From Caldimonas manganoxidans ATCC BAA-369 (GTDB lineage Bacteria; Pseudomonadota; Gammaproteobacteria; Burkholderiales; Burkholderiaceae_C), in contig NZ_KB905933.1 of assembly GCF_000381125.1 (NCBI RefSeq), positions 62,001 to 126,000 on the forward strand: a stretch of 64,000 nucleotides of DNA. Reading direction: 5' to 3'. The translations under genes were made by a program, and so were the position numbers. Positions 5,014 to 48,367 of the stretch are shown piece by piece. Each line of letters opens with the position of its first letter. The stretch's first letter is position 1. The notes beneath the pieces are model-generated. The model ran no database searches and had not been told where the DNA came from. It worked only from the letters and a program-made list of their open reading frames with translations.

Positions 5014-7410
5014 ATGGCTTTTCCTCTTGGTTCTCTAGGCAGTGACGCTTCCGACGCCGCCGACGCCTCCGCCCGGCCTGCGTCTTCGACCTACAAGCGT
5101 GTGTCGCGTCAGGCAGCGCCTGCGCCTGCGTCCCCGGCTCCCCGATGGCGTATGCAGCTGGGGGTGTTGCTGGGCGGCATGGGGCTGGCCTTGCTGCTGC
5201 TGGCTTTGTTGACGCATTCGGCCGGCGATGCGGCCTGGTCGACCTCGGGGGATGGTCGTCCTTTGCGCAACCAGGCAGGGGTGTTGGGCGCTTGGGTGTC
5301 GGATCTGCTGTACTACTTTTTCGGGTTTTCCGCCTGGTGGCTGGTGATCGTGGCCGTGCGCGCCTGGCTGGGTGCGCTGGCGCGTTGGCTGCGCAGCGGC
5401 CAAGAACTCCCGGCCGCGCCCTCGGCCGAGCCGGCCGGACCGGCTTGGCTGTTTTGGGGGGGCGTGGTCGTGCTGCTGGCATCCAGCGCGAGTCTGGAGT
5501 GGACGCGGCTGTACGCCCTGGAGCCGCACCTGCCCGGCCATGCCGGGGGCGTGTTGGGCTACGCGCTGGGCACGGCCAGCATGAAGCTGTTGGGCTTCGT
5601 GGGCTCCGGGGTGTTCTGGATCGCGCTGTTGGTGGCCGGTTTCTCGATGGCCTTCCGCTTTTCCTGGTTGCAAGTGGCCGAGCGGCTGGGCGGCTGGATC
5701 GATGGGTGGCGGATGCGGCGGGAGGAGGCGCGCGAGCGCAAAGAGGACCGACGCCTGGGTGAGCGCGCCATGCGCGAGCGCGAGGCCGATGTGCAGGTCG
5801 AGCGTCAGGTCTTGGTCGAGCATGCGCCGATCTTGATCGAGACCCCGGTGCCCGAGCTGCCCAAGTCGGCCCGTGTGGCCAAAGAGCGCCAAAAGCCGCT
5901 GTTCAACGAACTGACCGACACCCGCTTGCCGCAGGTGGATCTGCTCGATGCCGACACCGGTCGGCAGGAGACGGTCTCGCCCGAGACCTTGGAGATGACC
6001 TCGCGCCTGATCGAAAAGAAGTTGAAAGACTTCGGCGTCGAGGTGCGGGTGGTCGTGGCTTCGCCCGGCCCCGTGATCACGCGCTATGAAATCGAGCCGG
6101 CCACGGGCGTCAAGGGCTCACAAATCGTCAATCTGGCCAAGGATTTGGCGCGTTCGCTCAGTCTGGTGAGCATCAGGGTGGTCGAAACCATTCCCGGCAA
6201 GAACCTGATGGCCCTCGAACTGCCCAATGCCCGTCGCCAGAGCATCCGCTTGGCCGAGATCCTGGGCTCGCAGGCTTACAACGATGCGCAGTCTGTGCTC
6301 ACGCTTGGCTTGGGCAAGGACATCGTCGGCGGGCCGGTGGTGGCCGATCTGGCCAAGATGCCCCACCTGCTGGTGGCTGGCACCACCGGCTCGGGCAAGT
6401 CGGTCGGGATCAACGCGATGATCCTGTCGCTGCTGTACAAGGCCGAAGCCCGCGACGTGCGGCTCCTGCTCATCGACCCCAAGATGCTGGAGATGGCCAT
6501 GTACGAGGGCATTCCGCACTTGCTGGCGCCTGTGGTGACGGACATGAAGCAAGCGGCCAATGCGCTGAACTGGTGCGTGGGCGAGATGGAGCGCCGCTAC
6601 AAGCTGATGAGCAAGCTGGGGGTGCGCAATCTGGCCGGCTACAACAAGAAGATCGCCGAAAGTGCCGAGCGTGGCGAGAAGATCCCCAATCCCTTCAGCC
6701 TCACCCCGGACGCTCCCGAGCCGCTGGAGCGCATGCCCTACATCGTGGTCATCATCGACGAGTTGGCCGACCTGATGATGGTGGTGGGCAAGAAGATCGA
6801 GGAACTGATCGCACGCCTGGCGCAAAAAGCGCGGGCGGCGGGCATCCACCTCATCTTGGCCACGCAGCGGCCCAGCGTGGACGTCATCACCGGGCTGATC
6901 AAGGCCAATATTCCGACCCGCATCGCGTTCCAGGTCAGCAGCAAGATCGACAGCCGCACCATCCTCGATCAGATGGGGGCCGAGACCCTGCTGGGGCAAG
7001 GCGACATGCTGTATTTGGCGCCAGGCACTGGGTTGCCGGTGCGTGTGCATGGCGCTTTCGTCAGTGATGAGGAGGTGCATCGGGTGGTGGAGTACCTCAA
7101 AACCCAAGGACAGCCCAACTATGTCGAGGGCATTCTCGAAGGCGGGGTGCTCGACGGCGAGGGCGCTGGCGCTGGCGAGGCCGGGGTCGTTGGCGGTGCC
7201 GACGCGGAGGCCGACCCGATGTATGACCAGGCCGTGGCCGTGGTGCTGCAGCACCGTCGGGCTTCGATTTCCTTGGTTCAACGACATTTGCGCATCGGAT
7301 ACAACCGCGCGGCCCGTTTGCTGGAACAAATGGAGCGCGCGGGCCTCGTATCGAGCATGGCCACCAATGGCAGTCGAGACGTTCTCGTGCCGGCTGCCCG
7401 CGACGAATGA
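5014..7410 (+). CDS. ftsK: DNA translocase FtsK
   Basis: This 798-aa septal DNA pump clears chromosome dimers during division. Four hydrophobic segments occupy roughly the first 220 residues, followed by a charged linker. The RecA-like motor has Walker [11 protein letters not shown] and Walker [14 protein letters not shown]. The C-terminal winged-helix gamma domain, which reads KOPS sites, is about the last 65 residues (from [20 protein letters not shown]). Two starts are possible. TTG at 4996 has AGGG about 9 bp before it. ATG at 5014 has no Shine-Dalgarno but sits 6 nt after CACAAT, which would suit a leaderless transcript. lolA overlaps its stop by 4 bp. Confidence 0.95.
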
Positions 7411-8021
7411 TGAATCGATCCATCCTGATGCTGCTGCTGGGTGCCATGCTGGCGGGGCCCGCCTGGGCCGATGCGCTTGGCAGCCTGCGCCAGTTCGTGC
7501 AAGAGGTCAAAAGCGCCCGGGCGGTGTTCACGCAGACGGTGAGTTCCCCCGAGGGGACACGCAAGCGCAGCAGCGAAGGCCGCTTCGAGTTCGTGCGGCC
7601 CAACCGCTTCCGCTTCGACTATGCGCCGCCGATGGCGCAGACCATCGTGGCCGACGGCCAGAAGGTCTGGCTGTACGACCCCGATTTGAACCAAGTCACG
7701 GTGCGCGCGATGAGCGAGGCCGTGGGCGCCACGCCGGCGGCCTTGCTGGCCGGTGGCCCGCTGGACCGAGAGTTCACCCTCAAGGGCTTGCCCGATCGCG
7801 ACGGCCTGCAGTGGGTCGAAGCCGTGCCCAAGGCGCGCGACAGCGCCTTCCAGGCCGTGCGGGTGGGCTTCAGGGGCAAGGAGCTGGCAGCGCTGGAGAT
7901 CGTCGATGGCTTCGGCCAGGTCTCGGTGCTGTCGATGCGCCAATTCGAGGCCAACGTGCACCTTGCGCCCGAGCGTTTCCGTTTCACGCCGCCGCCTGGG
8001 GCGGATGTGCTGGAACAGTAG
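7407..8021 (+). CDS. lolA: Outer-membrane lipoprotein carrier protein LolA
   Basis: The product is 204 aa, a normal length for this periplasmic chaperone that takes lipoproteins from the LolCDE transporter to LolB at the outer membrane. A signal peptide is clear ([20 protein letters not shown], cleaved before DALGSL). The mature part has the LolA pattern, with [20 protein letters not shown] near the N-terminus, then [12 protein letters not shown] and [18 protein letters not shown]. It overlaps ftsK by 4 bp (ATGA) and is probably co-transcribed with it. It ends 18 bp from the convergent metG, and no terminator is visible in that gap. Confidence 0.95.
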
Positions 8022-34537: not shown

Positions 34538-35427
34538 GCCCGGCGCAGTTTCAGGACTGGACCGCAGCGGCGCTGCAGCGCGTGGAAGCCGCCTTGGATC
34601 GCTTCGTGCCGGCCGATGCGCCGGCCGGGCTGGGGGAAGCCATGCGCTACGGCGTGCTCGATGGCGGCAAACGCTTGCGCGCGTTGCTGGTGCTGGCCGC
34701 TGCCGAGGCCGTGGGCGGCCATGCGCAAGCGGCGCTGCGTGCGGCGTGTGCGGTGGAGTTGATCCACGCCTATTCGCTGATTCACGACGACATGCCTTGC
34801 ATGGACAACGACGTGCTGCGCCGGGGCAAACCCACGGTCCATGTGAAGTTCGGCCAGGCGCTGGCCATGCTGGCCGGCGATGCGATGCAAGGCTTGGCCT
34901 TCGAGGTGCTCACGCCGCAGGACGAGGCCGACATCCCGCTGCCGATGCAGGCCCGACTGTGCGGTCTGCTGGCGCGCGCGGCCGGGCATGCCGGCATGGC
35001 CGGCGGGCAGGCCATCGACTTGGCGGCGGTGGGCCGCACGCTCAGCGAGGCCGAGTTGCGCCACATGCACCGATGCAAGACCGGGGCCTTGTTGCATGGC
35101 AGCGTGATGATGGGGGCGAGCTGCGGTGCGGCCGACGCGGCGGCCATGCAGGCGTTGTCGGACTATGGGTGGGCCGTGGGCTTGGCTTTTCAAGTGGTGG
35201 ATGACATCTTGGATGTGACCCAGGCGTCGGAGACCCTGGGCAAGACCGCGGGCAAGGACGCTCAGGACGGCAAGCCCACTTATGTCTCACTGTTGGGCTT
35301 GGAGGCCGCACGGCGTCATGCCGGCGAGTTGCGGGACGCCGCCTGCGAGGCCTTGGCACGCAGCGGCTTGGCCAACACGGCCTGTCTGGCCCGGCTGGCC
35401 GAGCGCATCGTCGATCGAGAACACTGA
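34534..35427 (+). CDS. ispA: Farnesyl diphosphate synthase
   Basis: This 297-aa trans-prenyltransferase condenses isopentenyl diphosphate with dimethylallyl and geranyl diphosphate. The first aspartate-rich motif is [13 protein letters not shown] and the second is [20 protein letters not shown]; the KRLRALL motif ([14 protein letters not shown]) is also present. The residues before the first DDxxD fit the short-chain (C15) proteobacterial type. Translation is coupled to xseB (4-bp overlap) and to dxs (TGATG, 1-bp overlap). Confidence 0.96.
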
Positions 35428-37316
35428 TGAAGCACTCCTTGCTGGAAACGATCCGCAGTCCAGCCGATTTGCGGCGGCTGCCCCGCGGCGAACTCAAACG
35501 TTTGGCTGTCGAGTTGCGAGACTTCGTGCTGCAAAGCGTGTCTCAAACGGGCGGTCATTTGTCGTCCAACTTGGGCACGGTCGAACTCACGATCGCGCTG
35601 CACTACGTGTTCAATACGCCCGAGGATCGGCTGGTATGGGATGTGGGGCATCAGACCTATCCGCACAAGATCCTCACGGGCCGGCGCGAGCGCATGCACA
35701 CCTTGCGTCAGCTCGGCGGCATCAGCGGGTTTCCGCGCCGTGACGAAAGCCCGTATGACACTTTCGGCACGGCGCATTCGTCCACGTCGATCTCGGCCGC
35801 GCTGGGCATGGCCTTGGCGGCCAAGCTCAAAGGCGAGGACCGGCGCTGCGTGGCCATCATCGGCGATGGGGCGATGACCGCTGGCATGGCCTTCGAGGCG
35901 CTGAACAATGCGGGCGTGCCGCATGCGGTGGGCTTGGCCGACATGCTGGTGGTGCTCAATGACAACGACATGTCGATCAGCCCGCCGGTGGGGGCGCTGA
36001 ACAAATATTTGGCCCGGCTGATGAGCGGCAAGTTCTATGCCGCCGCGCGCGAGGGCGCCAAGGCGGTGCTGAAGAACGCGCCGCCACTGTTCGAATTGGC
36101 GCGTCGCTTCGAGGAGCATGCCAAAGGCATGGTGGTGCCGGGCACGATCTTCGAGGAATTCGGGTTCACCTATGTCGGGCCGATCGACGGTCATGATCTC
36201 GACGCCCTGATTCCCACGCTGGAGAACCTGCGCCAGCGCAAGGGCCCGCAGTTCTTGCACGTGGTCACGAAAAAGGGTTATGGCTACAAGCTGGCCGAGG
36301 CCGACCCGATCGCCTACCACGGCCCGGGCAAGTTCGATCCGGTGCGCGGATTGCAGAAGCCGGCCACGCCGCCCAAGCTGACCTTCACCCAGGTGTTCGG
36401 CCAGTGGCTGTGCGACATGGCCGAGGCCGACCCGAAGCTGGTGGCCATCACGCCGGCCATGCGGGAGGGCTCGGGCATGGTGGAGTTTCATCAGCGTTTC
36501 CCGACCCGGTTCTACGACGTGGGCATCGCCGAGCAGCATGCCGTCACTTTTGCCGCCGGGCTGGCTTGCGAGGGCCTCAAGCCGGTGGTGGCCATCTATT
36601 CCACCTTCTTGCAGCGCGCCTACGATCAGCTCATCCACGATGTGGCGATTCAGAAACTGCCCATGGTGCTGGCCGTCGATCGCGCCGGCATCGTCGGGGC
36701 GGATGGCGCCACCCACATGGGCGCGTTCGACATTGCCTACTTGCGCTGCATTCCGAACGTCAGCGTGCTGACGCCCGCCGACGAGAACGAGTGTCGGCAG
36801 ATGCTCTACACCGCCTATATGCAAGACCATCCGGTGGCCGTGCGCTATCCGCGTGGCGCCGGCGTTGGCGTGGAGGTGAACAAGGCGATGACGCTCCTGC
36901 CCTTTGGCAAGGGCGAGGTGCGTCGCCGTGGCCAGCGCATCGCCATCTTGGCCTTCGGGCCCATGCTTTACCCCGCCTTGGCCGCCGCCGAGCGGCTGGA
37001 TGCCACGGTGGCCAACATGCGCTTCGTCAAGCCGCTGGACGTGGCCCTGGTGGAGGAGCTGGCCCGCAGCCACGATGCCTTGGTGACGGTGGAGGAAGGC
37101 TGCCTCATGGGGGGAGCCGGCAGCGCGGTGGCCGAGGCGCTGCATGCAGAGGGCGTGACGGTGCCGGTGCTGATGCTCGGCCTGAAGGACGAGTTCGTCG
37201 AGCATGGCGATCCGGCGCGCTTGCTGGCCCTGCAAGGGCTGGATGCCCAGGGCATCGAGCGGTCGATCTTGCAACGCTTTGGCGCCAAGCTCGAACGGAT
37301 CAAGCCGGCGGCCTGA
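35427..37316 (+). CDS. dxs: 1-deoxy-D-xylulose-5-phosphate synthase
   Basis: The product is 629 aa, full length for the thiamine-diphosphate enzyme that starts the MEP isoprenoid pathway from pyruvate and glyceraldehyde 3-phosphate. Visible motifs are [37 protein letters not shown] (ThDP-binding GDG), [19 protein letters not shown], and in the second half [20 protein letters not shown] with the catalytic glutamate. It is the last gene of the xseB-ispA-dxs operon and converges on selD with a 15-bp gap. Confidence 0.97.
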
Positions 37317-37331
37317 GCCGCCACGGATCGG

Positions 37332-38381
37332 TCAACGCACCACCAACCGCGCTTCGCCGGCCTCGATCCGACCCACGACGGTGGCGGCCTCGAATCCGTG
37401 CCGGCCGAAGATGCCCAGCACCTCGTCGACGACCTCAGGGGCGCAGGCCGCCAGCAGCCCGCCGCTGGTCTGTGGGTCGGTGAGCAAGGCCCGCTCGATG
37501 TCGTCGAAGCCCTGGGGGAGATCGACTGAGGCGCCATAGCTGGCCCAGTTGCGGCCCGAGGCGCCGGTGATGAAACCACGCGCGGCCAGCTCGCGTGCGC
37601 CTTCCAGCAAGGGCACCGAGGCCCAATCGATCACCACCCGCACGCCGGCTCCCCGCGCCATCTCCAAGCCGTGACCGGCCAGGCCGAAGCCGGTGACGTC
37701 GGTCAAGGCATGCACGCCGGGCAACTCGGCCAGGTCCATGCCGGGCGTGTTCAGGCGCGTGGTGGTGTCGATCATGCGCCGATAGCCGGCCTCATCCAGC
37801 GCTTGCTTCTTCAGTGCGGCCGACAGCACGCCCACGCCCAGCGGTTTGCCCAAGACGAGCAGGTCGCCGGGCTGCGATCCTGCATTGCGCTTGACCCGTT
37901 CGGGATGGACGAGCCCGAGCACGACCAGGCCGTAAATGGGCTCGACCGAGTCGATGGTATGCCCGCCGGCGATCGGGATGCCGGCTTGGCGACAGACGCT
38001 CTGGCCGCCTTGCAAGATGCGGCCGATGATCTCCAGCGGCAGCACATTGACCGGCATGCCCACCAGGCCCAAGGCGAGGATGGGGCGGCCGCCCATGGCA
38101 TACACGTCGGAAATCGCATTGGTGGCTGCGATGCGCCCGAAGTCGTAGGGATCGTCGACGATGGGCATGAAGAAGTCGGTGGTGGCGATGAGGGCCTGCT
38201 GGTCGTTGAGGCGGTAGACGGCCGCATCGTCGGCCGTCTCGATGCCCACCATCAGCGCCTCGGGCACGGGCAGTCCGGGCGTGGAGCGCAGGATCTCGGA
38301 CAGCACCGCGGGCGCGATTTTGCAGCCGCAGCCTCCGCCGTGGGACAGCGAGGTCAAGCGAGGAGGGGTCGAAGCAGTCAT
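37332..38381 (-). CDS. selD: Selenide, water dikinase (selenophosphate synthetase)
   Basis: This 349-aa enzyme makes selenophosphate from selenide and ATP. The N-terminal catalytic segment is LTSLSHGGGCGCKIAP: the Cys form (Cys18/Cys20), with no selenocysteine codon. Metal and ATP sites are in GIETADDAAVYRLNDQ, TTDFFMPIVDDPYDFGRIAA and GGHTIDSVEPIYGL. Selenophosphate feeds selenocysteine, 2-selenouridine or selenoneine pathways. The gene faces away from an EgtB/SenA-type synthase across 55 bp, which points to selenoneine-like metabolism (see findings). The formate-dehydrogenase accessory genes elsewhere in the window are a second possible consumer. Confidence 0.95.
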   Translation of the reverse strand: MTASTPPRLTSLSHGGGCGCKIAPAVLSEILRSTPGLPVPEALMVGIETADDAAVYRLNDQQALIATTDFFMPIVDDPYDFGRIAATNAISDVYAMGGRPILALGLVGMPVNVLPLEIIGRILQGGQSVCRQAGIPIAGGHTIDSVEPIYGLVVLGLVHPERVKRNAGSQPGDLLVLGKPLGVGVLSAALKKQALDEAGYRRMIDTTTRLNTPGMDLAELPGVHALTDVTGFGLAGHGLEMARGAGVRVVIDWASVPLLEGARELAARGFITGASGRNWASYGASVDLPQGFDDIERALLTDPQTSGGLLAACAPEVVDEVLGIFGRHGFEAATVVGRIEAGEARLVVR

Positions 38382-38436
38382 GGGGTGAGGTCTTGGGCGG
38401 TGGATCGGGGGGCGGCGGGCCACCGGAGGTGGGACA

Positions 38437-39672
38437 ATGCCCGCATCGCCAATTGTGCGGGAATCGACGATGGTGGACATCGACACCCCCTTGTTGCGCC
38501 AGCTGGGGCGCGACGCCCTGTCCTTGGCCTTGATCGATGCCCGCAACTGCAGTTTGCGTCGTTTTGCGTCGTTCGAGCAGGCCGGCATGTTGCAGGTGCC
38601 TTGTTGGCCCGAACTCGAGCCGCCGCTGTGGTTGCTTGGCCACGTGGCCTGGTTCCAGGAATACTGGATCGGTCGCAACGTGGAACGTTACCGCGGGGCT
38701 CAGGCCGACCCGACCCGGCCGAAGCTGGCCTCCATCTTGCCGCAGGCCGATGCTTGGTATGACCCCGCGTGCGTGCCGCACGACCAGCGCTGGTTGCGGC
38801 ATTGGCCCGATGCCACCGAGACGCGCAACTACCTGGTCGATACCTTGGAGGCCACGCTGGACTTGCTGGCCAACGCTCCAGAGACCGACGAGGGCTTGTA
38901 TTTCTTCCGGCTGGCCCTCTTTCACGAGGATCAGTGCGCCGAGACCTTGGCCTGCATGGCCCAGACGGTGGGCATTCCCATGCCCGATGTGGTCGTGCCA
39001 GAGCCCTGCACGCCACGTGCGGCAGTGCGGGTGCCTCATTGCCGCTGGAGCCTGGGACGGCCGCGCGGGGAAGGCTTCGTCTTCGACAACGAAAAATGGG
39101 CTCACGAGGTGCGCTTGCCGGAGTTCGAGATCGACGCGCAGCCGGTGAGCTGGGCGCAGTTTCTGGAATTCATCGATGATGGGGGCTACGAGGATCCCCG
39201 CTGGTGGAGCGAGGCCGGTTGGGCCTGGGTGCAGCGGCAGGCGCGCACCGCGCCGCGTCATGTCGAGCAGTTGCGCCATGGCGTGCTGGTGCGACGCTTT
39301 GGCGTGCTCACCCAAGTGCCGCTGGCCGCGCCGGTGACCCATGTGAGTTGCCACGAAGCCGAGGCGTGGTGCCGCTGGGCGGGACGGCGATTGCCCTTCG
39401 AGGAGGAGTGGGAGGCCGCGCACGCCCTGGGCCGTCGCCAGGGGTTTCGCAGCGGGGAGGTCTGGGAGTGGACGGCCAGTCGCTTCGAACCGTATGCTGG
39501 CTTCGAGCCCGATCCCTACCGCCATTACTCCTTGCCTTGCTTCGGGACGCACTGGGTGCTCAAGGGCGGGTCGATGGTCACGCGCGGACGGCTGAAGGAC
39601 CCCAAGTACCGCCACTTCCTGCGGCCCGAACGTGACGATGTCTTCAGCGGCTTTCGCTCTTGTGCGCTGTGA
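38437..39672 (+). CDS. senA: EgtB-type synthase, probable selenoneine synthase SenA
   Basis: The product is 411 aa with an N-terminal DinB-like helical domain and a C-terminal FGE/sulfatase-modifying domain (VRLPEFEIDAQPVSWAQFLE, HVSCHEAEAWCRWAGRRLP, GEVWEWTASRF, then FSGFRSCAL). This is the architecture of ergothioneine and selenoneine synthases, which join a thiol or selenol to trimethylhistidine with oxygen. The head-to-head position with selD favours SenA. Predicted iron ligands are His69 (LLGHVAWFQEYW) and His163. The usual HxxxH partner is Cys167 (FHEDQCAETL), which is odd. ATG 38437 has GGAGGT 6 bp before it; ATG 38470 is an alternative, with GACAAT then acting as -10. Confidence 0.72.
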   Translation: MPASPIVRESTMVDIDTPLLRQLGRDALSLALIDARNCSLRRFASFEQAGMLQVPCWPELEPPLWLLGHVAWFQEYWIGRNVERYRGAQADPTRPKLASILPQADAWYDPACVPHDQRWLRHWPDATETRNYLVDTLEATLDLLANAPETDEGLYFFRLALFHEDQCAETLACMAQTVGIPMPDVVVPEPCTPRAAVRVPHCRWSLGRPRGEGFVFDNEKWAHEVRLPEFEIDAQPVSWAQFLEFIDDGGYEDPRWWSEAGWAWVQRQARTAPRHVEQLRHGVLVRRFGVLTQVPLAAPVTHVSCHEAEAWCRWAGRRLPFEEEWEAAHALGRRQGFRSGEVWEWTASRFEPYAGFEPDPYRHYSLPCFGTHWVLKGGSMVTRGRLKDPKYRHFLRPERDDVFSGFRSCAL

Positions 39673-39685
39673 GAAGACGCAGGCT

Positions 39686-40771
39686 TCATCGGCGCGGCTG
39701 TCGGTAGCTCCACCAGGGCAGCACCGCGCGCAGGCTCAGTACTTCACCGCAGCGCTCGGGCGTGTAGCCGGGCAAGGTGGCCAGCTCGGCCTGCCAGGCC
39801 GGGTCGCGTAGCGCTTGCATCAGCCGTTGCACGGCAGGCTGCTCCAGCGATGGGGCCAGCACGGCGAGCACGTAGCGTTCCTGAACCAGCGGCAGGAAGT
39901 CCAGGCCACGCGAGCGCGCTACCGTCTCGATGCCGAAGCCGGCATCGGCGGCGCCACTGGCGACGGCCTCGGCCACGGCAGCATGTGAAGGCTCGGTGAG
40001 GGCTGCCGCAGGCCCTGCGAGCCCGGCCTGCGCGCACAGTTCCTCGAAAAGCACCCGTGAGCCCGTGCCCCGCGGCCGGTACACGACGCGCAGTCCTGGG
40101 CGGCTCAGATCGGCCAGGCCCTGCACATGCAGCGGATTGCCTGGCGCGACGATCAGGCCTTGGCAGCGCTGCGCAAAGCCGATGAGCTTGTGGCGCCCCG
40201 GCTTGAGGCGGGGGCGGTAGGTGCGCGCCGTGGCCGAGCGGCGATCGGCATCCAAGCGCAGATGGAAGCCAGCCACCAGGCAGCGCCCTTCGTTCAAGGC
40301 ATCCAGCGCATCGACGCTGCCGCTGAACTGCAGGTCCAGATGCAGGCCCGAGCGAGCCACTCGCTCGCGCAAGCGCGGCAGGGCCTCATCGTGGCTGGCC
40401 TGCACGCTCAGCACCAAGGCTTGCTCGTCGAAGACCACCGCGAAGGCCCGCTCCAACTCGCTGCGCAAAGCCTCGATCTGCGGGGCCAGCCGCGCGCGGG
40501 CGCGGCGCTCGGCCCACAGCAGCTTGTCGCCAAAGGGCGAGAGTTGAGCCCGCTGACCTTTGACCCACCGCACCAGTGGCTGGCCCAACTCGGCTTCCCA
40601 GCGCTTGAGTTCGCCCCACACATGGCGGTAAGACAGCTCCAGTTCGCGCGCCGCGGCAGAGATCGACCCCGACCGGTCGATGGCCTGGAGCAGCCGAATC
40701 AAGGGGTGGTACAGGTCTTCGACCGGCTCGTTCGGTGCGCACAGCGCATAGCGCAGCGAGATCCTATGCAT
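39686..40771 (-). CDS. ModE/LysR-type HTH regulator with periplasmic-binding-protein domain
   Basis: This 361-aa protein has an N-terminal winged helix (LLQAIDRSGSISAAARELEL, then SYRHVWGELKRWEAELGQPL) of the LysR/ModE class. Residues about 110-340 form a molybdate-binding-protein-like domain (APGNPLHVQGLADLSRPGLR, VYRPRGTGSRVLFEELCAQ, SGAADAGFGIETVARSRG). The same architecture occurs in regulators beside molybdate and tungstate uptake genes. It is divergent from tupBCA across 64 bp, so tungstate-dependent control of that operon is the obvious inference. The oxyanion itself or a molybdopterin precursor could be the ligand. Confidence 0.85.
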   Translation of the reverse strand: MHRISLRYALCAPNEPVEDLYHPLIRLLQAIDRSGSISAAARELELSYRHVWGELKRWEAELGQPLVRWVKGQRAQLSPFGDKLLWAERRARARLAPQIEALRSELERAFAVVFDEQALVLSVQASHDEALPRLRERVARSGLHLDLQFSGSVDALDALNEGRCLVAGFHLRLDADRRSATARTYRPRLKPGRHKLIGFAQRCQGLIVAPGNPLHVQGLADLSRPGLRVVYRPRGTGSRVLFEELCAQAGLAGPAAALTEPSHAAVAEAVASGAADAGFGIETVARSRGLDFLPLVQERYVLAVLAPSLEQPAVQRLMQALRDPAWQAELATLPGYTPERCGEVLSLRAVLPWWSYRQPRR

Positions 40772-40835: not shown

Positions 40836-41549
40836 ATGAACGCCTTGGCCGACAGCGTCGTCCAGGCGCTCGCGCTGCTGTCGTCCTTCGATCCACGGCT
40901 GTGGAGCATCGTGATGCTGTCCCTGCAGGTCAGCGGCACGGCCAGCCTCATCGCGATGGGGCTGGGGCTTGCGCTGGGTGCGTGGATTGCGGTCAGCCGT
41001 TTCCCAGGCCGCGCTGCCGTGTTGGTGTTGCTCAACACGTTCTTGGCCCTGCCGGCGGTGGTGGTGGGCTTGGTGGTCTACCTGCTGCTATCGCGCGCAG
41101 GTCCCTTGGGCCCCTTGGGCCTGCTGTTCACGCCTGCGGCGATGGTGGTGGCGCAGACGCTGCTGGTGCTGCCCATCGTCACCGCACTGGTGCGCCAGCA
41201 TCTGGAAGCGGCGATGAACGACCACGGCGAGCAGTTGCGCTCGCTCGGGGCGGGGCGCCTGTGCAGCGCCTTGATCTTGGCCTGGGACGAGCGTGCCGCA
41301 CTGGCCACGGTGGGACTGGCGGCCTTCGGCCGTGCGATCGCCGAGGTCGGGGCGGTGATGATCGTGGGCGGCAACATCGATGGCGTCACGCGCGTGATGA
41401 CCACCGCCATCGCCTTGGAAACCAGCAAGGGCGACCTGCCGCTGGCCCTGGGTCTGGGGCTGGTGCTGTTGGCCGTGGTGCTGGCGTTGAACGTGCTGAT
41501 CGCCGCCATGCGCCAGTGGCACGAACGGCAGGATGAGTCCTACGCATGA
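40836..41549 (+). CDS. tupB: Tungstate ABC transporter permease
   Basis: This 237-aa inner-membrane permease has about five to six helices. LQVSGTASLIAMGLGLALGA opens the transmembrane region, and the cytoplasmic coupling loop carries the EAA-like GAGRLCSALILAWDERAALA and FGRAIAEVGAVMIVGGNIDG. The latter is typical of TupB-type tungstate permeases. It is the first gene of tupBCA, with the ATP-binding and binding-protein genes behind it. Confidence 0.9.
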   Translation: MNALADSVVQALALLSSFDPRLWSIVMLSLQVSGTASLIAMGLGLALGAWIAVSRFPGRAAVLVLLNTFLALPAVVVGLVVYLLLSRAGPLGPLGLLFTPAAMVVAQTLLVLPIVTALVRQHLEAAMNDHGEQLRSLGAGRLCSALILAWDERAALATVGLAAFGRAIAEVGAVMIVGGNIDGVTRVMTTAIALETSKGDLPLALGLGLVLLAVVLALNVLIAAMRQWHERQDESYA

Positions 41550-41628
41550 TTGCTGCTGCACAGCCGTTCCCAGAGGAGGGCGCCTCCCATTTCGGAATCA
41601 GGTCACGCCGTGACCGGAGGGCCGCGCC

Positions 41629-42396
41629 GTGAGCTGGCCGCCGGTGACGTCTTTGCGTGTGGTGCACCGCGCGCCTGCTGCGCAGCCGACCCTGCAGATC
41701 GGGCTGGAGGGGGCATACGTGCGCTTTGGCCGCAAGACGGCATTGCACGGTGTGGACCTGCAGGTGCATGCCGCGGAGCGCATCGCTTTCGTCGGGGCCA
41801 ATGGGTCAGGCAAGAGCACGTTGCTGCGGGCCTTGCACGGGTTGGTGCCACTGACCGAAGGCCGCCGGTACTGCGGCCGGCGCGAGGACGGGCAGCCGTG
41901 GCGCCAGGCGATGGTGTTCCAGCGCCCGCACATGCTGCGTCTGAGTGTGCGCCACAACGTCGCCTTGGGGCCGTGGCTGGCCGGTGTCCCTTGGCGCGAA
42001 TGTGTTGCGCGTGCCGAGGAGGCGTTGCAGCGTGTGGGGCTGCACACGCAGGCCCGGCGGGCGGCCCGGGTGCTGTCCGGCGGCCAACAGCAGCGCGTCG
42101 CGCTGGCGCGCGCTTGGGCTTTGCAGCCCGACATGCTGCTGCTGGACGAGCCCACCGCCAGCCTGGACCCCTCTGCCCAGCGTGAGGTGGAGGCCTTGAT
42201 CGAGCAGTTCGCCGGCCAGGGGCTCACCGTGCTGATGAGCTCTCACAACCTGGGGCAGGTCCGGCGCTTGGCCACCCGTGTCGTCTACCTCGAGCAGGGG
42301 CGGGTGCTGGCCGATGTCGATGTCGATCGCTTCTTCCACGGCGAGTTGCCGCGGCAAGCGCAGCTATTCCTCAAAGGAGAACTTCCATGGCACTGA
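41629..42396 (+). CDS. tupC: Tungstate ABC transporter ATP-binding protein
   Basis: This 255-aa ABC ATPase has Walker A GANGSGKSTLLRAL, Q-loop MVFQRPHMLRLSV, signature LSGGQQQRVALARAWAL, Walker B LLLDEPTASLD and H-loop TVLMSSHNLGQVRRL. The GTG start at 41629 is supported by CCGGAGG ending 8 bp before it. A 79-bp gap separates it from tupB, and its last codons overlap the tupA start (42387-42396). Confidence 0.92.
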   Translation: MSWPPVTSLRVVHRAPAAQPTLQIGLEGAYVRFGRKTALHGVDLQVHAAERIAFVGANGSGKSTLLRALHGLVPLTEGRRYCGRREDGQPWRQAMVFQRPHMLRLSVRHNVALGPWLAGVPWRECVARAEEALQRVGLHTQARRAARVLSGGQQQRVALARAWALQPDMLLLDEPTASLDPSAQREVEALIEQFAGQGLTVLMSSHNLGQVRRLATRVVYLEQGRVLADVDVDRFFHGELPRQAQLFLKGELPWH

Positions 42397-43223
42397 CGAT
42401 TGGGCGGCTGATCCTGCGCGTGGCGGGCTTGGGCCTGGGGGCCTGTTTGACGGTGGGGGTGTGGGCGCAGGAGCGCTTCATCGTGGTGGCGTCAACGACG
42501 TCGACCGAGCAGTCGGGCCTGTTCGCCCACTTGCTGCCGGCCTTCAAGCAAGCAACCGGCATCGAGGTGCGGGTGGTGGCACTGGGCACGGGGCAGGCGC
42601 TGGACATGGGGCGGCGTGGCGACGCGGATGTCGTCTTCGTGCACGACCAGGCCGCCGAAGAGAAGTTCGTGGCCGAAGGCTTCGGCCTGAAGCGCCTCCC
42701 AGTGATGTACAACGATTTCATCCTCGTCGGTCCGAAGGCTGATCCGGCCGGCGTCAAGGGGCGCGACATCGTGGCCGGCTTGCAGAAGTTGGCCGCCGGC
42801 CATGCCACCTTCATTTCCCGCGGCGACAAAAGCGGCACCCATGCGGCCGAGCTGCGTTATTGGAAGGCGGCGGGCATCGAGGCCCCCGAGACCCGGGTCA
42901 GCGGCTACAAGGCCTGCGGCTGCGGCATGGGCCCGGCATTGAACATGGCCGCTGGCAGCCAGGCCTACGTGCTCACCGATCGCGGGACTTGGCTGTCGTT
43001 CAAGAATCGCGGCGATCTGGCCGTGCTGGTCGAAGGCGACCAGCGCCTGTTCAACCAGTATGGTGTGATCGTGGTCAACCCGGCGCGGCATCCGCATGTC
43101 AAGCGGGACCTGGCCCAGACCTTTGTCGATTGGCTGGTGTCCGAGGCCGGCCAGGCCACAATCGCCGCCTATCGTATCGGTGGCGAACCGCTGTTCTTCC
43201 CCAACGCGAAGACCGATCCCTGA
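42387..43223 (+). CDS. tupA: Periplasmic tungstate-binding protein
   Basis: The product is 278 aa. The signal peptide is ILRVAGLGLGACLTVGVWAQ. The mature protein begins ERFIVVASTTSTEQSGLFAH; the TTSTxxSGL motif marks TupA tungstate-binding proteins and contributes to the oxyanion pocket, as does SRGDKSGTHAAELRYW. TupA proteins bind tungstate far more tightly than molybdate. It is translated from AAAGGAG at 42376-42382, inside the end of tupC. It ends 6 bp from the convergent regulator gene. Confidence 0.93.
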   Translation: MALTIGRLILRVAGLGLGACLTVGVWAQERFIVVASTTSTEQSGLFAHLLPAFKQATGIEVRVVALGTGQALDMGRRGDADVVFVHDQAAEEKFVAEGFGLKRLPVMYNDFILVGPKADPAGVKGRDIVAGLQKLAAGHATFISRGDKSGTHAAELRYWKAAGIEAPETRVSGYKACGCGMGPALNMAAGSQAYVLTDRGTWLSFKNRGDLAVLVEGDQRLFNQYGVIVVNPARHPHVKRDLAQTFVDWLVSEAGQATIAAYRIGGEPLFFPNAKTDP

Positions 43224-43229
43224 GCCGGC

Positions 43230-44390
43230 TCAAGACGCGCCCGGCGATGCCTTGCGCAACTTGCGGTACAGCGTGTTGCGTCCAATGCCCAGCTGGCGGG
43301 CCGCCTTGGAGATGTTCCCGCCGGCGGCCGTGACCGCCCGCCGGATGGCCTCGAGCTCCAAGGCTTGCAGGGTCGCCGGGGGCGTCGTGACGGCCACCGG
43401 TGCAGCGAGCAAGGCCGGCGGGGGCGGTGCCACGGCGTTGCGCCCCCGGCTCCACAAGGTCGGCCAATTGAAAAATGCGCGCAGATACAGGCTGCTTTCG
43501 CCCAGGCCCCCGCGGTGCAGCACGATCCGCAAGGGCTCGTCGCCGCAGCGACGGCAATGGTCGATGACCTGGCCGACGGTGATGCCGAGTGCGGCTTGCA
43601 AGCCTTGCATGCGCAGGGCAGCAGCGCTGCGCCCCAGCATGTCCAAGGCGGTGCGGGTGGCGCCGAGCACCGCGCCATCGGGGGAGACCGCCAGCAAGCC
43701 CTCGCGGACCGTGCCAAGCATCTCTGGCCGCGGGTGAATGTGCAGCCGCAGCCCCTGGCGGAAGCGGTCGTTGAAGCAATGGTTTTCGATCATCTGGGCC
43801 GACAGGCGGACCAGCGCCAGCGTGTGGGGGTGGTAGGAACGCTGGTCGCCGGTCACGTCCAGCACGCCCATCACCTGGCCGGCATGGTCGAAGATCGGCG
43901 CGGCCGAGCAGGTCAGGAAATGATTGACTCGCACGAAATGTTCGGCGCCATGCACCAGGGTGGGGGCTTCGTCGAACAAGGCGGTGCCGATCGCGTTGGT
44001 GCCTTTGGTGGCCTCGGACCAGTTCACCCCGGGCGCCAGCGCGATTTGTTGGGCTTTCTCCATGAAGCCATCGTCGCCCAGACTGTGCAGGATGGTGCCT
44101 TGGCTGTCCGTGAGCACCACCAGGCTGCGGGTGAAGACGATTTGCTCGAACAACATCTCCATCACCGGCACGGCGTGTCGCCAGAGTTGCCGGTTGCGCT
44201 CGCGCATCTCTTGCAGCCGTCCAAGGGGCACGGGACTGAGGTCCGGCACGGCACGCTCATCCACGCCCAAGGCGGCACAACGGGCGTGACTGCGCGCGAT
44301 CGCGCTGGCGTGGTCGGCAGACATCGGGGGCGGGCCCTCAAGGGCCATGCGATCCAGCTTGCCGATGGCAGGGCGATCCAATCGGGACAT
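43230..44390 (-). CDS. AcoR-like regulator: GAF and PAS domains with Fis HTH, no AAA+ domain
   Basis: The product is 386 aa. A GAF sensor (about 60-190) contains VVLTDSQGTILHSLGDD, NWSEATKGTNAIGTAL and AAPIFDHAGQVMGVLDVTGD, the AcoR-type effector domain. A PAS-like part follows (TVREGLLAVSPDGAVLGATR). The C-terminus is a Fis-type HTH (LELEAIRRAVTAAGGNISKA, then ARQLGIGRNTLYRKLRK). The central AAA+ module of sigma-54 activators is absent: there is no Walker A and no GAFTGA between the PAS and Fis parts. It is divergent from the aor operon and is its likely regulator, perhaps sensing an aldehyde or alcohol. The ATG at 44390 is a best guess; 44348 and 44324 are alternatives. Confidence 0.88.
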   Translation of the reverse strand: MSRLDRPAIGKLDRMALEGPPPMSADHASAIARSHARCAALGVDERAVPDLSPVPLGRLQEMRERNRQLWRHAVPVMEMLFEQIVFTRSLVVLTDSQGTILHSLGDDGFMEKAQQIALAPGVNWSEATKGTNAIGTALFDEAPTLVHGAEHFVRVNHFLTCSAAPIFDHAGQVMGVLDVTGDQRSYHPHTLALVRLSAQMIENHCFNDRFRQGLRLHIHPRPEMLGTVREGLLAVSPDGAVLGATRTALDMLGRSAAALRMQGLQAALGITVGQVIDHCRRCGDEPLRIVLHRGGLGESSLYLRAFFNWPTLWSRGRNAVAPPPPALLAAPVAVTTPPATLQALELEAIRRAVTAAGGNISKAARQLGIGRNTLYRKLRKASPGAS

Positions 44391-44507
44391 GCTCGTTGCG
44401 CGACGAAGGCGGCAGTGCCTGTGGCCGGCCGCCCCAGGCACCGCGGGAATTGACCATGACGCGCAGTGTGGCATTGGCCGAGCGGCTTGCCAAGGTGGAC
44501 CGGGGGG

Positions 44508-44526
44508 CTGTCCCAGCGTGGAACAG
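44508..44526. promoter_or_regulatory. Inverted repeat, candidate operator of the aor operon
   Basis: CTGTCCCA (44508-44515) and TGGAACAG (44519-44526) form an 8-3-8 dyad with one mismatched pair. It lies about 120 bp from the regulator start and 150 bp from the ferredoxin start, in the 284-bp divergent region. A Fis-type HTH protein encoded next to it is the natural candidate to bind. Confidence 0.5.
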
Positions 44527-44562
44527 CGGCGCGGCCCAGACCCCCGGAAAACCCGGGTAAGG

Positions 44563-44589
44563 CCTAGGTTTGCAGGCCGACGACCTAGG
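44563..44589. repeat. Paired CCTAGG hexamers in the aor promoter region
   Basis: CCTAGG occurs at 44563-44568 and at 44584-44589, exactly 21 bp apart (two helical turns), about 85 bp before the ferredoxin ATG. Each is self-complementary. A regulator or RNA polymerase site is possible. No sigma-54 -24/-12 element with the required 10-bp GG-GC spacing was found; the nearest candidates have 9. Confidence 0.45.
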
Positions 44590-44674
44590 AAGAAGATTGC
44601 ATAGCACCGGGTCAGGACGCGCACATGCCCTGTCCTGCCGCACGAACCCTCCACAGCCAACCGAAAGGCGAGCC

Positions 44675-45151
44675 ATGCAAAAGGTTCTGCACATCAATCC
44701 CGAGAAGTGCACCGGCTGTCTGCAATGCGAGATGGCCTGCAGCTTCGAAAACTACGGGGTGTATGCGACCTCCAAGTCGCGCATCAAGGTCTTCGACTTC
44801 CACCACACCGGCCGCAAGGTACCCTATACCTGCACACAATGTGACGAGGCCTGGTGCTTGCATGCCTGTCCGGTGGAGGCCATCACCATCGACAAGCTCA
44901 CCGGCGCCAAGGTGGTCAGCGAGACCACCTGCGTGGGGTGCAAGGTGTGCACGATTGCCTGCCCCTTTGGCACCATCAATTACGTGCAGGAAACCGGCAA
45001 GGTGCAAAAGTGCGACTTGTGCGGTGGGCAGCCGGCCTGTGCCGAGGCTTGCCCCACACAGGCCATCACCTTCGTCGATGCCAACTGGACCGGCCTGGAC
45101 CGCATGAAGGCCTGGGCCGACAAGCTCGGCAATCAAGCAGCAGCGGCCTGA
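44675..45151 (+). CDS. aorA: Four-cluster ferredoxin subunit of aldehyde oxidoreductase
   Basis: This 158-aa HycB-type polyferredoxin has sixteen cysteines in four groups: CTGCLQCEMAC near the start, CTQCDEAWCLHAC, CVGCKVCTIAC and CDLCGGQPACAEAC. This is the set expected for four [4Fe-4S] clusters. In the Aromatoleum-type enzyme this subunit carries electrons between the tungsten subunit and the FAD subunit. AAAGGCGAG at 44664-44672 is the ribosome site. It is the first gene of the operon, 12 bp before the catalytic subunit gene. Confidence 0.9.
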   Translation: MQKVLHINPEKCTGCLQCEMACSFENYGVYATSKSRIKVFDFHHTGRKVPYTCTQCDEAWCLHACPVEAITIDKLTGAKVVSETTCVGCKVCTIACPFGTINYVQETGKVQKCDLCGGQPACAEACPTQAITFVDANWTGLDRMKAWADKLGNQAAAA

Positions 45152-45163
45152 AAGGAGCGCATC

Positions 45164-47011
45164 ATGTCCTGGGCTGGCAAGATTTTGCGTGTGAACCTCA
45201 CCACGGGGCAGTGCAAGAGCGAACCGTTGAACATGACCTGGGCCAAACAGTACCTCGGGTCACGCGGCCTCGCCTCCAAGTATCTGAGCAGCGAAATCGA
45301 CCCGAAAGTCGATCCGCTGTCGCCGGACAACAAGATCATTTGGGCCACCGGCCCGCTGACGGGCACGATGGCCTCCACCGGCGGACGCTACACGGTGGTG
45401 ACCAAAGGGCCACTGACCGGCGCCATCGCCTGCTCGAATTCAGGCGGCTACTGGGGGGCCGAGCTGAAGATGGCCGGCTGGGACATGGTCATCTTCGAAG
45501 GCAAGAGCCCCAAACCGGTTTATCTGGCGATCGTCGACGATCAAGCCGAGTTGCGCGATGCGGCCCACTTGTGGGGCAAATCGGTGTGGGAGACCGAAGA
45601 AATCATCAAGAAGCAGCATCAGGATCCGCTGACCCGCATCTCCAGCATCGGGCAAGCGGGCGAGAACCTGGTGCTGTTTGCCGCGGTGGTCAATGACTTG
45701 CACCGGGCCGCCGGACGCTCTGGCGTGGGGGCGGTGATGGGCAGCAAGAACCTCAAAGCCATTGCCGTGCGCGGCACCCGGGGCGTGGGCAACCTGGCCA
45801 ACCCCAAGGAATTCATGCGAGTCACCTTCGAGAAAAAGAAAATCCTCGCCGACAATGCCGTCACCGGCCAGGGGCTGCCCACCTATGGCACGCAGGTGCT
45901 GATGAACGTCATCAACGAGGTGGGCGCGCTGCCCACGCGCAACCACCGCGACAGCCAGTTCGAGGGGGCCAAGGACATCTCGGCCGAGGCCATGGCCACG
46001 CCGCGCAAGAGCGATGGCAAGCCTCAGCTCGTGACCAACCAAGCTTGCTTCGGCTGCACCATCGCCTGCGGGCGCATCAGCAAGATCGACCAGACCCACT
46101 TCTCGGTGGAAAACAAGCCGCAGTACTGGGGCGCCTCCGGTGGCCTGGAGTACGAGGCTGCCTGGGCGTTGGGCGCGGCCAACGGGGTCAACGACCTGGA
46201 GGCGCTGCAGTACGCCAATTTGATCTGCAATGAGCAGGGCATGGACCCGATCTCCTTCGGTGCCACCGTCGGCGCGGTGATGGAGCTGTACGAAATGGGC
46301 GTGCTGACCAAGGAGCAGATCGGCATCGAGGCGCCGTTCGGCTCGGCCAAGGCCTTGTGCGAATTGGCCGAGATGACGGCCAAGGGGGTGGGCTTTGGCA
46401 AGGAGATCGGGCAGGGCAGCAAGCGGCTGTGTGCGAAGTACGGCCACCCCGAGCTGTCGATGAGCGTCAAAGGGCAGGAGTTCCCTGCCTACGATGCCCG
46501 CGGCATCCAGGGCATGGGGCTGACCTATGCCACCAGCAATCGCGGGGCCTGCCACCTGCGCAGCTACACCGTGGCGTCGGAGATCCTGGGCATTCCGATG
46601 AAGACCGACCCGCTGGTGGCCGATGGCAAGCCCGAGCTGGTCAAGGCCTTCCAGGATGCCACGGCGGTGTTCGATTCGGCCGGCATTTGCATCTTCACCA
46701 GCTTCGCCTGGAGCCTGGCCGATGTGCAACCCCAGGTGGCCGCGGCCTGTGGCGAGGAGTTCACGCTGGAATACCTCAACGAGGTGGGCGAGCGCATCTG
46801 GAACATGGAGCGCGATTTCAACAACCGGGCCGGCTTCACCGCCAAGGACGACACCTTGCCGCCGCGCTTGCTCAAGGAAGGGGCCAAAACCGGGCCGGCG
46901 CAGGGGCTGACCAGCAAGCTGCCCGAAATGCTGCCCAAGTACTACGAGCTGCGCGGCTGGACCCCCGATGGCCAGCTCAAGCCGGAGACGCGCGCCCGTT
47001 TGGGACTGTGA
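45164..47011 (+). CDS. aorB: Tungsten-containing aldehyde:ferredoxin oxidoreductase, catalytic subunit
   Basis: This 615-aa AOR-family protein oxidises aldehydes to acids with a tungsten bis-pterin cofactor. The N-terminal domain starts WAGKILRVNLTTGQCKSE, with TGPLTGTMASTGGRYTVVTK. The [4Fe-4S] ligands are in NQACFGCTIACGRIS (about 295-305), with the fourth Cys in TSNRGACHLRSYTV. Pterin-binding motifs include VFDSAGICIFTSFAW (DxxGxC). No signal peptide is seen, so it is cytoplasmic. An adjacent dedicated tungstate importer strongly supports tungsten rather than molybdenum. AAAGGAG precedes the ATG. Confidence 0.94.
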   Translation: MSWAGKILRVNLTTGQCKSEPLNMTWAKQYLGSRGLASKYLSSEIDPKVDPLSPDNKIIWATGPLTGTMASTGGRYTVVTKGPLTGAIACSNSGGYWGAELKMAGWDMVIFEGKSPKPVYLAIVDDQAELRDAAHLWGKSVWETEEIIKKQHQDPLTRISSIGQAGENLVLFAAVVNDLHRAAGRSGVGAVMGSKNLKAIAVRGTRGVGNLANPKEFMRVTFEKKKILADNAVTGQGLPTYGTQVLMNVINEVGALPTRNHRDSQFEGAKDISAEAMATPRKSDGKPQLVTNQACFGCTIACGRISKIDQTHFSVENKPQYWGASGGLEYEAAWALGAANGVNDLEALQYANLICNEQGMDPISFGATVGAVMELYEMGVLTKEQIGIEAPFGSAKALCELAEMTAKGVGFGKEIGQGSKRLCAKYGHPELSMSVKGQEFPAYDARGIQGMGLTYATSNRGACHLRSYTVASEILGIPMKTDPLVADGKPELVKAFQDATAVFDSAGICIFTSFAWSLADVQPQVAAACGEEFTLEYLNEVGERIWNMERDFNNRAGFTAKDDTLPPRLLKEGAKTGPAQGLTSKLPEMLPKYYELRGWTPDGQLKPETRARLGL

Positions 47012-47092
47012 CGACGGGACTGTGACTCCGGTGGCGTGACCCCGTGGGGCGGCCCAGCGCGCTGGCGCCGCCCCTGGTTTTTGGAGCCTTCC

Positions 47093-48367
47093 ATGAAACA
47101 CGTCATCCTCGGCGCCGGCCCGGCCGGCGTGATCGCCGCGGAAACCTTGCGCAAACACGCCCCGCGCGACGAGATCCTCCTCATCGGAGCGGAACGCGAG
47201 CCGCCATACTCGCGCATGGCCATTCCTTATCTCTTGAGCGGCCAGATCGGCGAGTCGGGCACCTACTTGCGCAAGCGAGCCGATCACTTTCAGCGCTTGA
47301 ACATCCAGGTGCGACAGCAGCGGGCCAAACGGCTCGATGCAGCGGCTCGTCGCCTCACGCTGGATGACGACAGCCTCCTGGACTTCGACACCTTGTTGAT
47401 CGCCACCGGCTCCAGCCCCGTGCGCCCGCCCATTCCTGGCTTGGATCTGCCGGGCGTGCATGCGTGCTGGACGCTGGAGGATGCCCGTGCCATCGAACGC
47501 TTGGCCACCAAGGGCGCACGCGTGCTGCAGATGGGCGCTGGCTTCATCGGCTGCATCATCATGGAAGCGCTGGCCCTGCGCGGCGTGCAGCTGACCGTGG
47601 TGGAAATGGGCGACCGCATGGTGCCGCGCATGATGGGGCCGACCGCCGGCGGCATGATCAAGCGCTGGGTGGAGTCCAAGGGCGTGACGGTTTACACCGG
47701 CACCCGGGTGGAGGCCATCGACAGCGGCACGCCGTTGAAAGTGCGGCTGTCCAATGGCCAGCACCTCAGCGTGGACCTGGTCATCAGCGCCACCGGTGTG
47801 AAGCCCAACATCGCCTTCCTCGAGAACTCGGGCGTGACTTGCCTGCAGGGGGTGCTGACCGACGAACACATGCGCACCAATGTGCCGGGCATCTATGCCG
47901 CTGGCGATTGTGCCGAAGCGCTGGACCTGGTGACCGGCCGCCCTATCGTCAGCGCGATCCAGCCCAACGCGGCCGATCAGGCCTACGTGGCAGCGATGAA
48001 CATGGCTGGCAAGCCCGCCGTGCTCAAAGGCGTGACGCAGATCAACGTGCTCGACACCCTGGGGCTCATCAGCACGAGCTTTGGTCTGTGGCAAGGCGTG
48101 CCTGGCGGCGAGGGTGTCGAGCTGACCGATGAGGCCCAATGGAAGCACCTGAGCCTGCAGTTCGAGGCAGACCGTCTGGTGGGCTGCAACACCATTGGCT
48201 GGACCGAGCATGTGGGCGTCTTGCGCGGCCTGGTGGAGGGCCGGGTGCGCCTGGGGGCGTGGAAAGACCGGCTGCTGCGCGAGCCCACGCGGCTGATGGA
48301 GGCTTACCTTGCCTGCGCGCAGGCGCAGCACCAGTGGCAAGCCGCGCGGCTGAAGGCGGCGGCATGA
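47093..48367 (+). CDS. aorC: FAD-dependent NAD(P)H oxidoreductase subunit of aldehyde oxidoreductase
   Basis: The product is 424 aa, a pyridine nucleotide-disulfide oxidoreductase family member. The FAD site is HVILGAGPAGVIAAETLRKH, the NAD(P)-binding fold is VLQMGAGFIGCIIMEALALR, and the C-terminal FAD motif is GIYAAGDCAEALDLVTGR. In the Aromatoleum-type complex the third subunit links the ferredoxin subunit to NAD. The open frame extends 57 bp upstream, but the ATG at 47093 has TTGGAG before it and begins the FAD motif directly. It follows aorB after 81 bp, and the MoaD-like gene starts 7 bp after its stop. Confidence 0.9.
   Translation: MKHVILGAGPAGVIAAETLRKHAPRDEILLIGAEREPPYSRMAIPYLLSGQIGESGTYLRKRADHFQRLNIQVRQQRAKRLDAAARRLTLDDDSLLDFDTLLIATGSSPVRPPIPGLDLPGVHACWTLEDARAIERLATKGARVLQMGAGFIGCIIMEALALRGVQLTVVEMGDRMVPRMMGPTAGGMIKRWVESKGVTVYTGTRVEAIDSGTPLKVRLSNGQHLSVDLVISATGVKPNIAFLENSGVTCLQGVLTDEHMRTNVPGIYAAGDCAEALDLVTGRPIVSAIQPNAADQAYVAAMNMAGKPAVLKGVTQINVLDTLGLISTSFGLWQGVPGGEGVELTDEAQWKHLSLQFEADRLVGCNTIGWTEHVGVLRGLVEGRVRLGAWKDRLLREPTRLMEAYLACAQAQHQWQAARLKAAA

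Follow-up and report, generated by a model that had tools for sequence, protein, structure and literature searches.

Gene content and surroundings of the locus

The stretch of Caldimonas manganoxidans ATCC BAA-369 DNA analysed here (64,000 nucleotides; the window) contains a selD gene and a gene for a SenA-family protein in divergent orientation, between dxs on one side and a ModE-like regulator and TupB/C/A-like transporter genes on the other (Table 1). Two SelD models recognise the selD product above their cut-offs (535 bits, cut-off 299, and 431 bits, cut-off 125), and its translation carries an N-terminal GGGCGCK, confirming the intact Cys-type selD of the initial annotation; selD is single-copy in each of the nine genus genomes. 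The facing gene had been described as a DinB plus FGE-domain synthase, and FGE-sulfatase and DinB_2 domains are indeed found in its 411 residues. The earlier description of a 55-bp head-to-head gap holds for the orientation and for the genes as annotated, but since the aligned SenA proteins of congeners open with M-D-I-D-T-P, translation probably begins with the ATG of Met12 (38470), 33 bp downstream of the annotated start, which would make the gap 88 bp. In the AlphaFold model the first ten residues of the annotated ORF have a mean pLDDT of 41.

Table 1. Coordinates of the genes, intergenic gap and active-site codons at the locus (window positions)
Feature	Position	Strand	Basis or remark
dxs, syntenic flank	35427..37316	+	at the locus in congeners G129, G150-G154, G156
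selD, selenide water dikinase, Cys type	37332..38381	-	349 aa; curated-model scores; the genome's only selD
Intergenic gap, 55 bp	38382..38436	.	senB occupies the same place in sister G152
Gene of SenA-family protein, 411 aa ORF	38437..39672	+	probable true start 38470
Codon of His69, first metal ligand, kept	38641..38643	+	alignment to EgtB 4x8b
Codon of His163, second metal ligand, kept	38923..38925	+	alignment to EgtB 4x8b
Codon of Cys167 (TGC); third metal ligand His lost	38935..38937	+	alignment; CAC in sister G152
Codon of His393 (CAC); hercynine-binding Asn lost (EgtB N414)	39613..39615	+	alignment; AAC in sister G152
ModE-like regulator, syntenic flank	39686..40771	-	locus comparison with congeners
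TupB/C/A-like ABC transporter genes, syntenic flank	40836..43223	+	locus comparison with congeners

Beside the locus, the region 40836-48367 is likely a tungsten enzyme locus. Besides the TupB/C/A-like ABC transporter, which adjoins the ModE-like regulator, it encodes proteins resembling aldehyde ferredoxin oxidoreductase (45164-47011) and pyridine nucleotide-disulfide reductase (47036-48367). TupA, TupB and the oxidoreductase-like protein all score under their curated cut-offs; the order of the tup, modE-like, oxidoreductase-like and disulfide reductase-like genes is identical in two congeners (G150 and G152).

In the published pathway to the antioxidant selenoneine, SelD/SenC provides selenophosphate, SenB makes a selenosugar and SenA couples the selenosugar to hercynine (PMC9814287; PMC10891094, in part). 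A tblastn search of the 64-kb window with one SenB and one EgtD query found neither, in line with the initial annotation, which had noted the missing neighbour, allowed for a senB elsewhere and suggested searching the genome for a SenB glycosyltransferase and egtD. Both proved absent from the genome (a 3.53-Mb draft of 89 contigs, 100% complete, 0.07% contamination): the best SenB match reaches 44.5 bits, where the cut-off is 300, and EgtD has no match at E 0.001 or at E 0.01. SenB exceeds its cut-off in 52 of the 150 family genomes that we sampled from a larger group (scores 365-455) and in three of the nine genus members, and EgtD is present in all genus members except the window species (8/9). 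Nor does the genome contain an EgtB, because the SenA model also catches EgtB (295-388 bits in congeners) yet gives a single match here. The tRNA selenation enzyme MnmH is present, and SelD therefore has a role without selenoneine; selenocysteine is ruled out as the purpose of selD, since SelA is absent from this genome (one of the nine genus members has it).

Where SenB-bearing relatives have the genes clustered, the order is selD-senB facing senA, and in G150, G152 and G153 this cluster sits between dxs and modE-tup, the arrangement of the window. The sister of the window species, G152 (81% identity in SenA, 85% in SelD), has senB between selD and senA at the same syntenic spot and keeps all key residues. 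Because the sister combines senB with both of the residues changed here, we infer that senB was lost from the canonical locus in the window lineage. In three other congeners (G129, G154, G151) selD faces senA without senB between them, and in G156 senA is alone at the spot and selD adjoins mnmH. A missing neighbour does not in itself prove absence, since six genomes sampled from the clade (G002, G014, G145, G027, G115, G130) have senA apart from senB, which adjoins egtD; for the window species the whole genome was searched.

The sister genome (L188, L107) has SenA, SenB, SelD and EgtD but a single SenA-model match, hence no EgtB; this gene content suggests selenoneine production without the EgtB route to ergothioneine. 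Four further loci, L282 (G036), L283 (G137), L284 (G021) and L285 (G057), have senB and selD with no senA in the fetched stretch. G036 has SenB above the cut-off and no SenA-model match, G137 is likewise not among the genomes with such a match, and G021 and G057 have weak matches only (8e-21 and 2.4e-16); these loci may reflect another use of the selenosugar, or loss of SenA.

Family membership and changes in the active site

The window protein passes the SenA model NF041186 (475 bits, cut-off 420) and fails the EgtB model TIGR03440 (237 bits, cut-off 360), and in the tree the EgtBs are placed outside the SenA clade; scores and tree rule out that it is an EgtB or an unrelated DinB/FGE protein. 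The fold agrees: the nearest solved structure is Variovorax paradoxus SenA, and the AlphaFold model (pLDDT 94.1) compares to SenA 8ryz with a Z of 56.4 and an rmsd of 1.5 over 394 residues at 48% identity. The initial annotation had named placement among EgtB or unrelated proteins, together with absence of EgtD and SenB, as evidence against its reading; the protein falls within the SenA family, and only the absence of the two genes was found.

In an alignment to EgtB 4x8b, whose iron ligands we take to be H51, H134 and H138, the ligand positions are occupied by His69, His163 and Cys167, so that the three-histidine iron site is incomplete; Tyr361 falls on Y377 and is kept, and His393 falls on N414 and is changed. 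H115 and R118, which align with donor-binding Arg of EgtB, are retained. The iron of EgtB is held by three histidines, Tyr377 being important (PMC10903977, in part), and hercynine is bound by Gln137, Asn414 and Trp415 (PMC9103826, in part). The title of PDB entry 8ux5 presents OvsA M401Y/Q430N/A431F as a hercynine-binding variant, which, as far as a title goes, implies a part for the Asn position in the choice of imidazole substrate. Having neither a three-histidine iron site nor the hercynine-binding Asn, the window protein presumably does not make selenoneine. A sequence error is unlikely at these sites in the one genome of the species compared, because two substitutions separate TGC from the CAC of the sister, and Asn393His comes on top of them. 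Both these changes and the senB between selD and senA in the sister had been missed in the initial annotation.

We aligned 158 SenA relatives, including rows from the best 80 of 505 named loci, 12 of the 80 being left out as duplicates or for an internal stop. Three histidines and the Asn are present in 83 rows, a His is lost in 69 and the Asn only in six; rows with all four are called intact here, so that the triad is present in 83/83 intact rows by definition. At 41 positions conserved in at least 98% of the intact rows, the window protein differs at 167, 393 and 339, and its sister at 339 only. Position 167 holds eight different letters in the 69 triad-less rows (R 34, Q 15, L 8, C 5, V 3, W 2, T 1, I 1), which rules out a shared replacement ligand. 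His69 and His163 are retained in 61/69 (0.88) and 59/69 (0.86) of these rows, against a median of 0.96 for the conserved positions, and Tyr361 in 2/68, N393 in 4/69 and H115 in about a quarter. As for a new motif in the altered copies, one position alone passed the filter for gained conservation, and the window protein is without that residue.

SenB partnership and selection on altered copies

For the survey across the family genomes we took all SenA-model matches above 420 bits and a selection at about 330-420 bits; a 374-bit match of the SenB-bearing G019 was left out. Sequences under 350 aa were dropped before the tree (L072 of G148, L063 of G041 and a fragment of L134 of G098), L163 (G131) is an EgtB and was not counted, and L213, with an internal stop, was left out of later counts. 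A copy was considered partnered if SenB adjoins it, or lies elsewhere in a genome where that SenA is the sole one; SenB was searched genome-wide in the G-numbered genomes, and named loci were judged at the locus. The five residues defined by EgtB are the three histidines, the Tyr and the Asn, of which the Tyr was added from the EgtB literature after the counts of three His plus Asn had been seen.

Among 89 sampled SenA relatives, the five residues are complete in 49/49 SenB-partnered copies and in 0/40 unpartnered ones. The clade of the window protein (53 rows, support 100/100), which leaves V. paradoxus SenA outside, holds all the losses: its 13 partnered copies have three His and Asn, and all 13 the Tyr too. 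In genomes without SenB, 21 of 26 copies have lost a His and three the Asn only, leaving two with all four. Where a genome has SenB and a further SenA, the 14 extra copies divide in the same way into 11, two and one. The three unpartnered copies that keep three His and Asn have W, D and F at 361. Outside the clade, three His, Asn and SenB are found together in 36/36, which is still 36/36 with the Tyr included. By parsimony on the tree the metal site changes 11 times and SenB partnership seven times. In independent pairs on well-supported branches (n=6), three His plus Asn go with SenB in five, against it in none and tie in one (median p 0.0625); for the three His alone the averages are 3.4 with, 0 against and 2.6 ties (median p 0.25). 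The association of the residues with SenB is thus one-way and rests on few independent events.

The best 80 of the 505 named loci supplied 68 new rows, 37 of which have lost a His and one the Asn only, with 30 keeping all four; the altered copies come from V. paradoxus ISL-3, other Variovorax, Ramlibacter, Xenophilus, Pseudorhodoferax and Polaromonas. Three of these 80 loci (L196, L208, L218), seen at the locus only, encode a protein with three His and Asn next to selD but without senB. The Tyr is missing from L196 and retained in L208 and L218, so that the five-residue motif of these two is intact without senB at the locus. A single one of the 80, L213, has an internal stop, with an intact motif.

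SenB lies within 8 kb in 20/46 intact rows and 0/75 altered rows, and 15/75 altered rows face selD. The nearest upstream marker is dctQ in 30/75 altered and 15/46 intact rows; being common to both, a neighbouring TRAP transporter is ruled out as an explanation of the residue changes. In many relatives, among them L236, L247, L262, L263 and L272 (about 5300-7750 in each), the SenA-family gene faces such a transporter (DctQ and DctM, with DctP nearby; Pfam on L236) and not selD, and these loci too lie between dxs and modE-tup.

Selection was estimated with a purpose-written four-taxon codon model. The window branch has an omega of 0.056, the remaining branches 0.057; a value of 1 on the window branch is rejected (p 5e-6). 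For G156 and G154, with the third His altered, omega is 0.084 against a background of 0.076, and for four copies with Arg at the third His 0.101; NG86 ratios are 0.12-0.38 in nine pairs of altered copies and 0.19-0.31 in eight intact pairs. The tested copies without the metal site are constrained about as tightly as working SenA. They are kept by selection, and therefore probably have another job. The end branch of the window protein is longer than that of its sister (0.26 vs 0.12), and its changes fall at positions released in other altered copies in 6/12 cases, against 77/400 overall (Fisher p 0.015).

Interpretation and comparison with known systems

The initial annotation read the locus as a probable selenoneine pathway. 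Its gene identifications, a SenA-family protein beside a true SelD with no adjacent senB, stand; the pathway itself does not, given the absence of SenB, EgtD and EgtB from the genome and the loss of a metal ligand and of the hercynine-binding Asn. We think it probable that this is a remodelled selenoneine locus, whose SenA-derived protein has ceased to make selenoneine and been kept for another role. That this role is non-catalytic (binding, sensing or structural) appears to us the most likely option, though on this step taken by itself our judgement is evenly balanced. The ancestral order would have been dxs - selD - senB facing senA - modE - tup. senB would have been lost at the window locus, egtD and egtB being missing from the genome, and selD would have been retained because MnmH requires SelD for tRNA selenation. 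Loss of SenB, or the presence of a second SenA, would free a SenA copy from selenoneine duty, after which the third His, the Tyr and the Asn could go while the fold stays; the window copy, which still has Tyr361, His115 and Arg118, would be an early case. The same three residues also count against remodelling, as does Cys, which could in principle serve as a metal ligand. Moreover, part of the purifying selection on the branch may be older than the loss, the independent-pairs test is above 0.05, and L208 and L218 are intact with selD alone at the locus.

A working selenoneine pathway would need another glycosyltransferase in place of SenB, uptake of hercynine and Cys167 as the third iron ligand. 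The protein does pass the SenA cut-off, keeps Tyr361, H115 and R118, is head to head with selD and is under strong purifying selection, but with SenB, EgtD and EgtB missing, Asn393 lost as well and Cys in just 5/69 triad-less rows that have no common replacement ligand, we regard this as highly improbable. A changed enzyme, using histidine or another amine together with a different sulfur or selenium donor at a metal site of two His (here perhaps plus Cys), would fit the retention of His69 and His163 in most triad-less rows, the adjacent SelD and the substrate choice that the title of 8ux5 ties to the Asn position. Yet the two histidines are retained no better than conserved positions in general, Tyr361, N393 and H115 are mostly gone, and the single position of gained conservation is missing in the window protein; as a guess this enzyme ranks second behind the non-catalytic role, and it is unlikely. 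Somewhat less likely still is simple decay, in which the gene would be an early pseudogene, open only because its loss is recent. The intact sister, the longer end branch and the enrichment of changes at released positions are what decay would leave, but omega does not rise on the window branch, older altered copies are still open and constrained, and the one internal stop in the best 80 of 505 named loci occurs with an intact motif. Returning to a remodelled locus, we can tentatively extend it: the altered copies could form a functional family that has arisen repeatedly from SenA, after loss of SenB or takeover by a second SenA, with a new role hidden under the label of selenoneine synthase. 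Such a family might span the genus of the window species, Polaromonas, Ramlibacter, Variovorax, Xenophilus and others, and perhaps bind a selenium or imidazole metabolite, for example, or hold a metal by two His with one position open.

A SenA call next to selD, taken in the literature as the sign of selenoneine production, can be false. In the family sample, 62 places in 55 genomes by hand count (56 genomes by the tally of the scan) exceed the SenA cut-off; nine of them are without a metal His, so that the label over-calls, and five more are without the hercynine Asn. In rescans with the SenA model L109 (433 bits) and L124 (432 bits), both altered, pass, and the Variovorax copies L247 (370 bits) and L263 (368 bits) fail. 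Requiring SenB in the genome together with the five SenA residues would remedy the annotation. The puzzle is why selection retains SenA without its active site in many lineages. In the titles and abstracts listed by paper searches, we found no description of an inactive or paralogous SenA.

Among the closest known systems is V. paradoxus SenA (NF041186; PDB 8ryz, 8k5i, 8k5j), which the window protein resembles in family score, fold and neighbouring selD; it differs in having Cys at the third iron His and His at the hercynine Asn, in a genome without SenB or EgtD. EgtB, the ergothioneine sulfoxide synthase, has the same DinB plus FGE architecture and fold, but the EgtB genes of the genus adjoin EgtD and the SenA-family gene of the window does not. 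OvsA, the selenoxide synthase of ovoselenol biosynthesis (PDB 8u41, 8u42, 8ux5), shares the DinB plus FGE fold (Z 41-43, a fold match that alone does not make the window protein an OvsA); in the alignment the wild-type enzyme is also without the Asn, whereas it retains the H-x3-H motif where the window protein has Cys167. Residue losses of the same kind occur in SenA relatives from other Burkholderiales that have no SenB or sit beside a second SenA (the 53-row clade); these copies have lost a metal His, the Asn, the Tyr or several of them, often at the same syntenic locus. Unlike nearly all the triad-less rows, the window protein retains Tyr361, and many of the other altered copies adjoin a TRAP transporter, where the window has selD.
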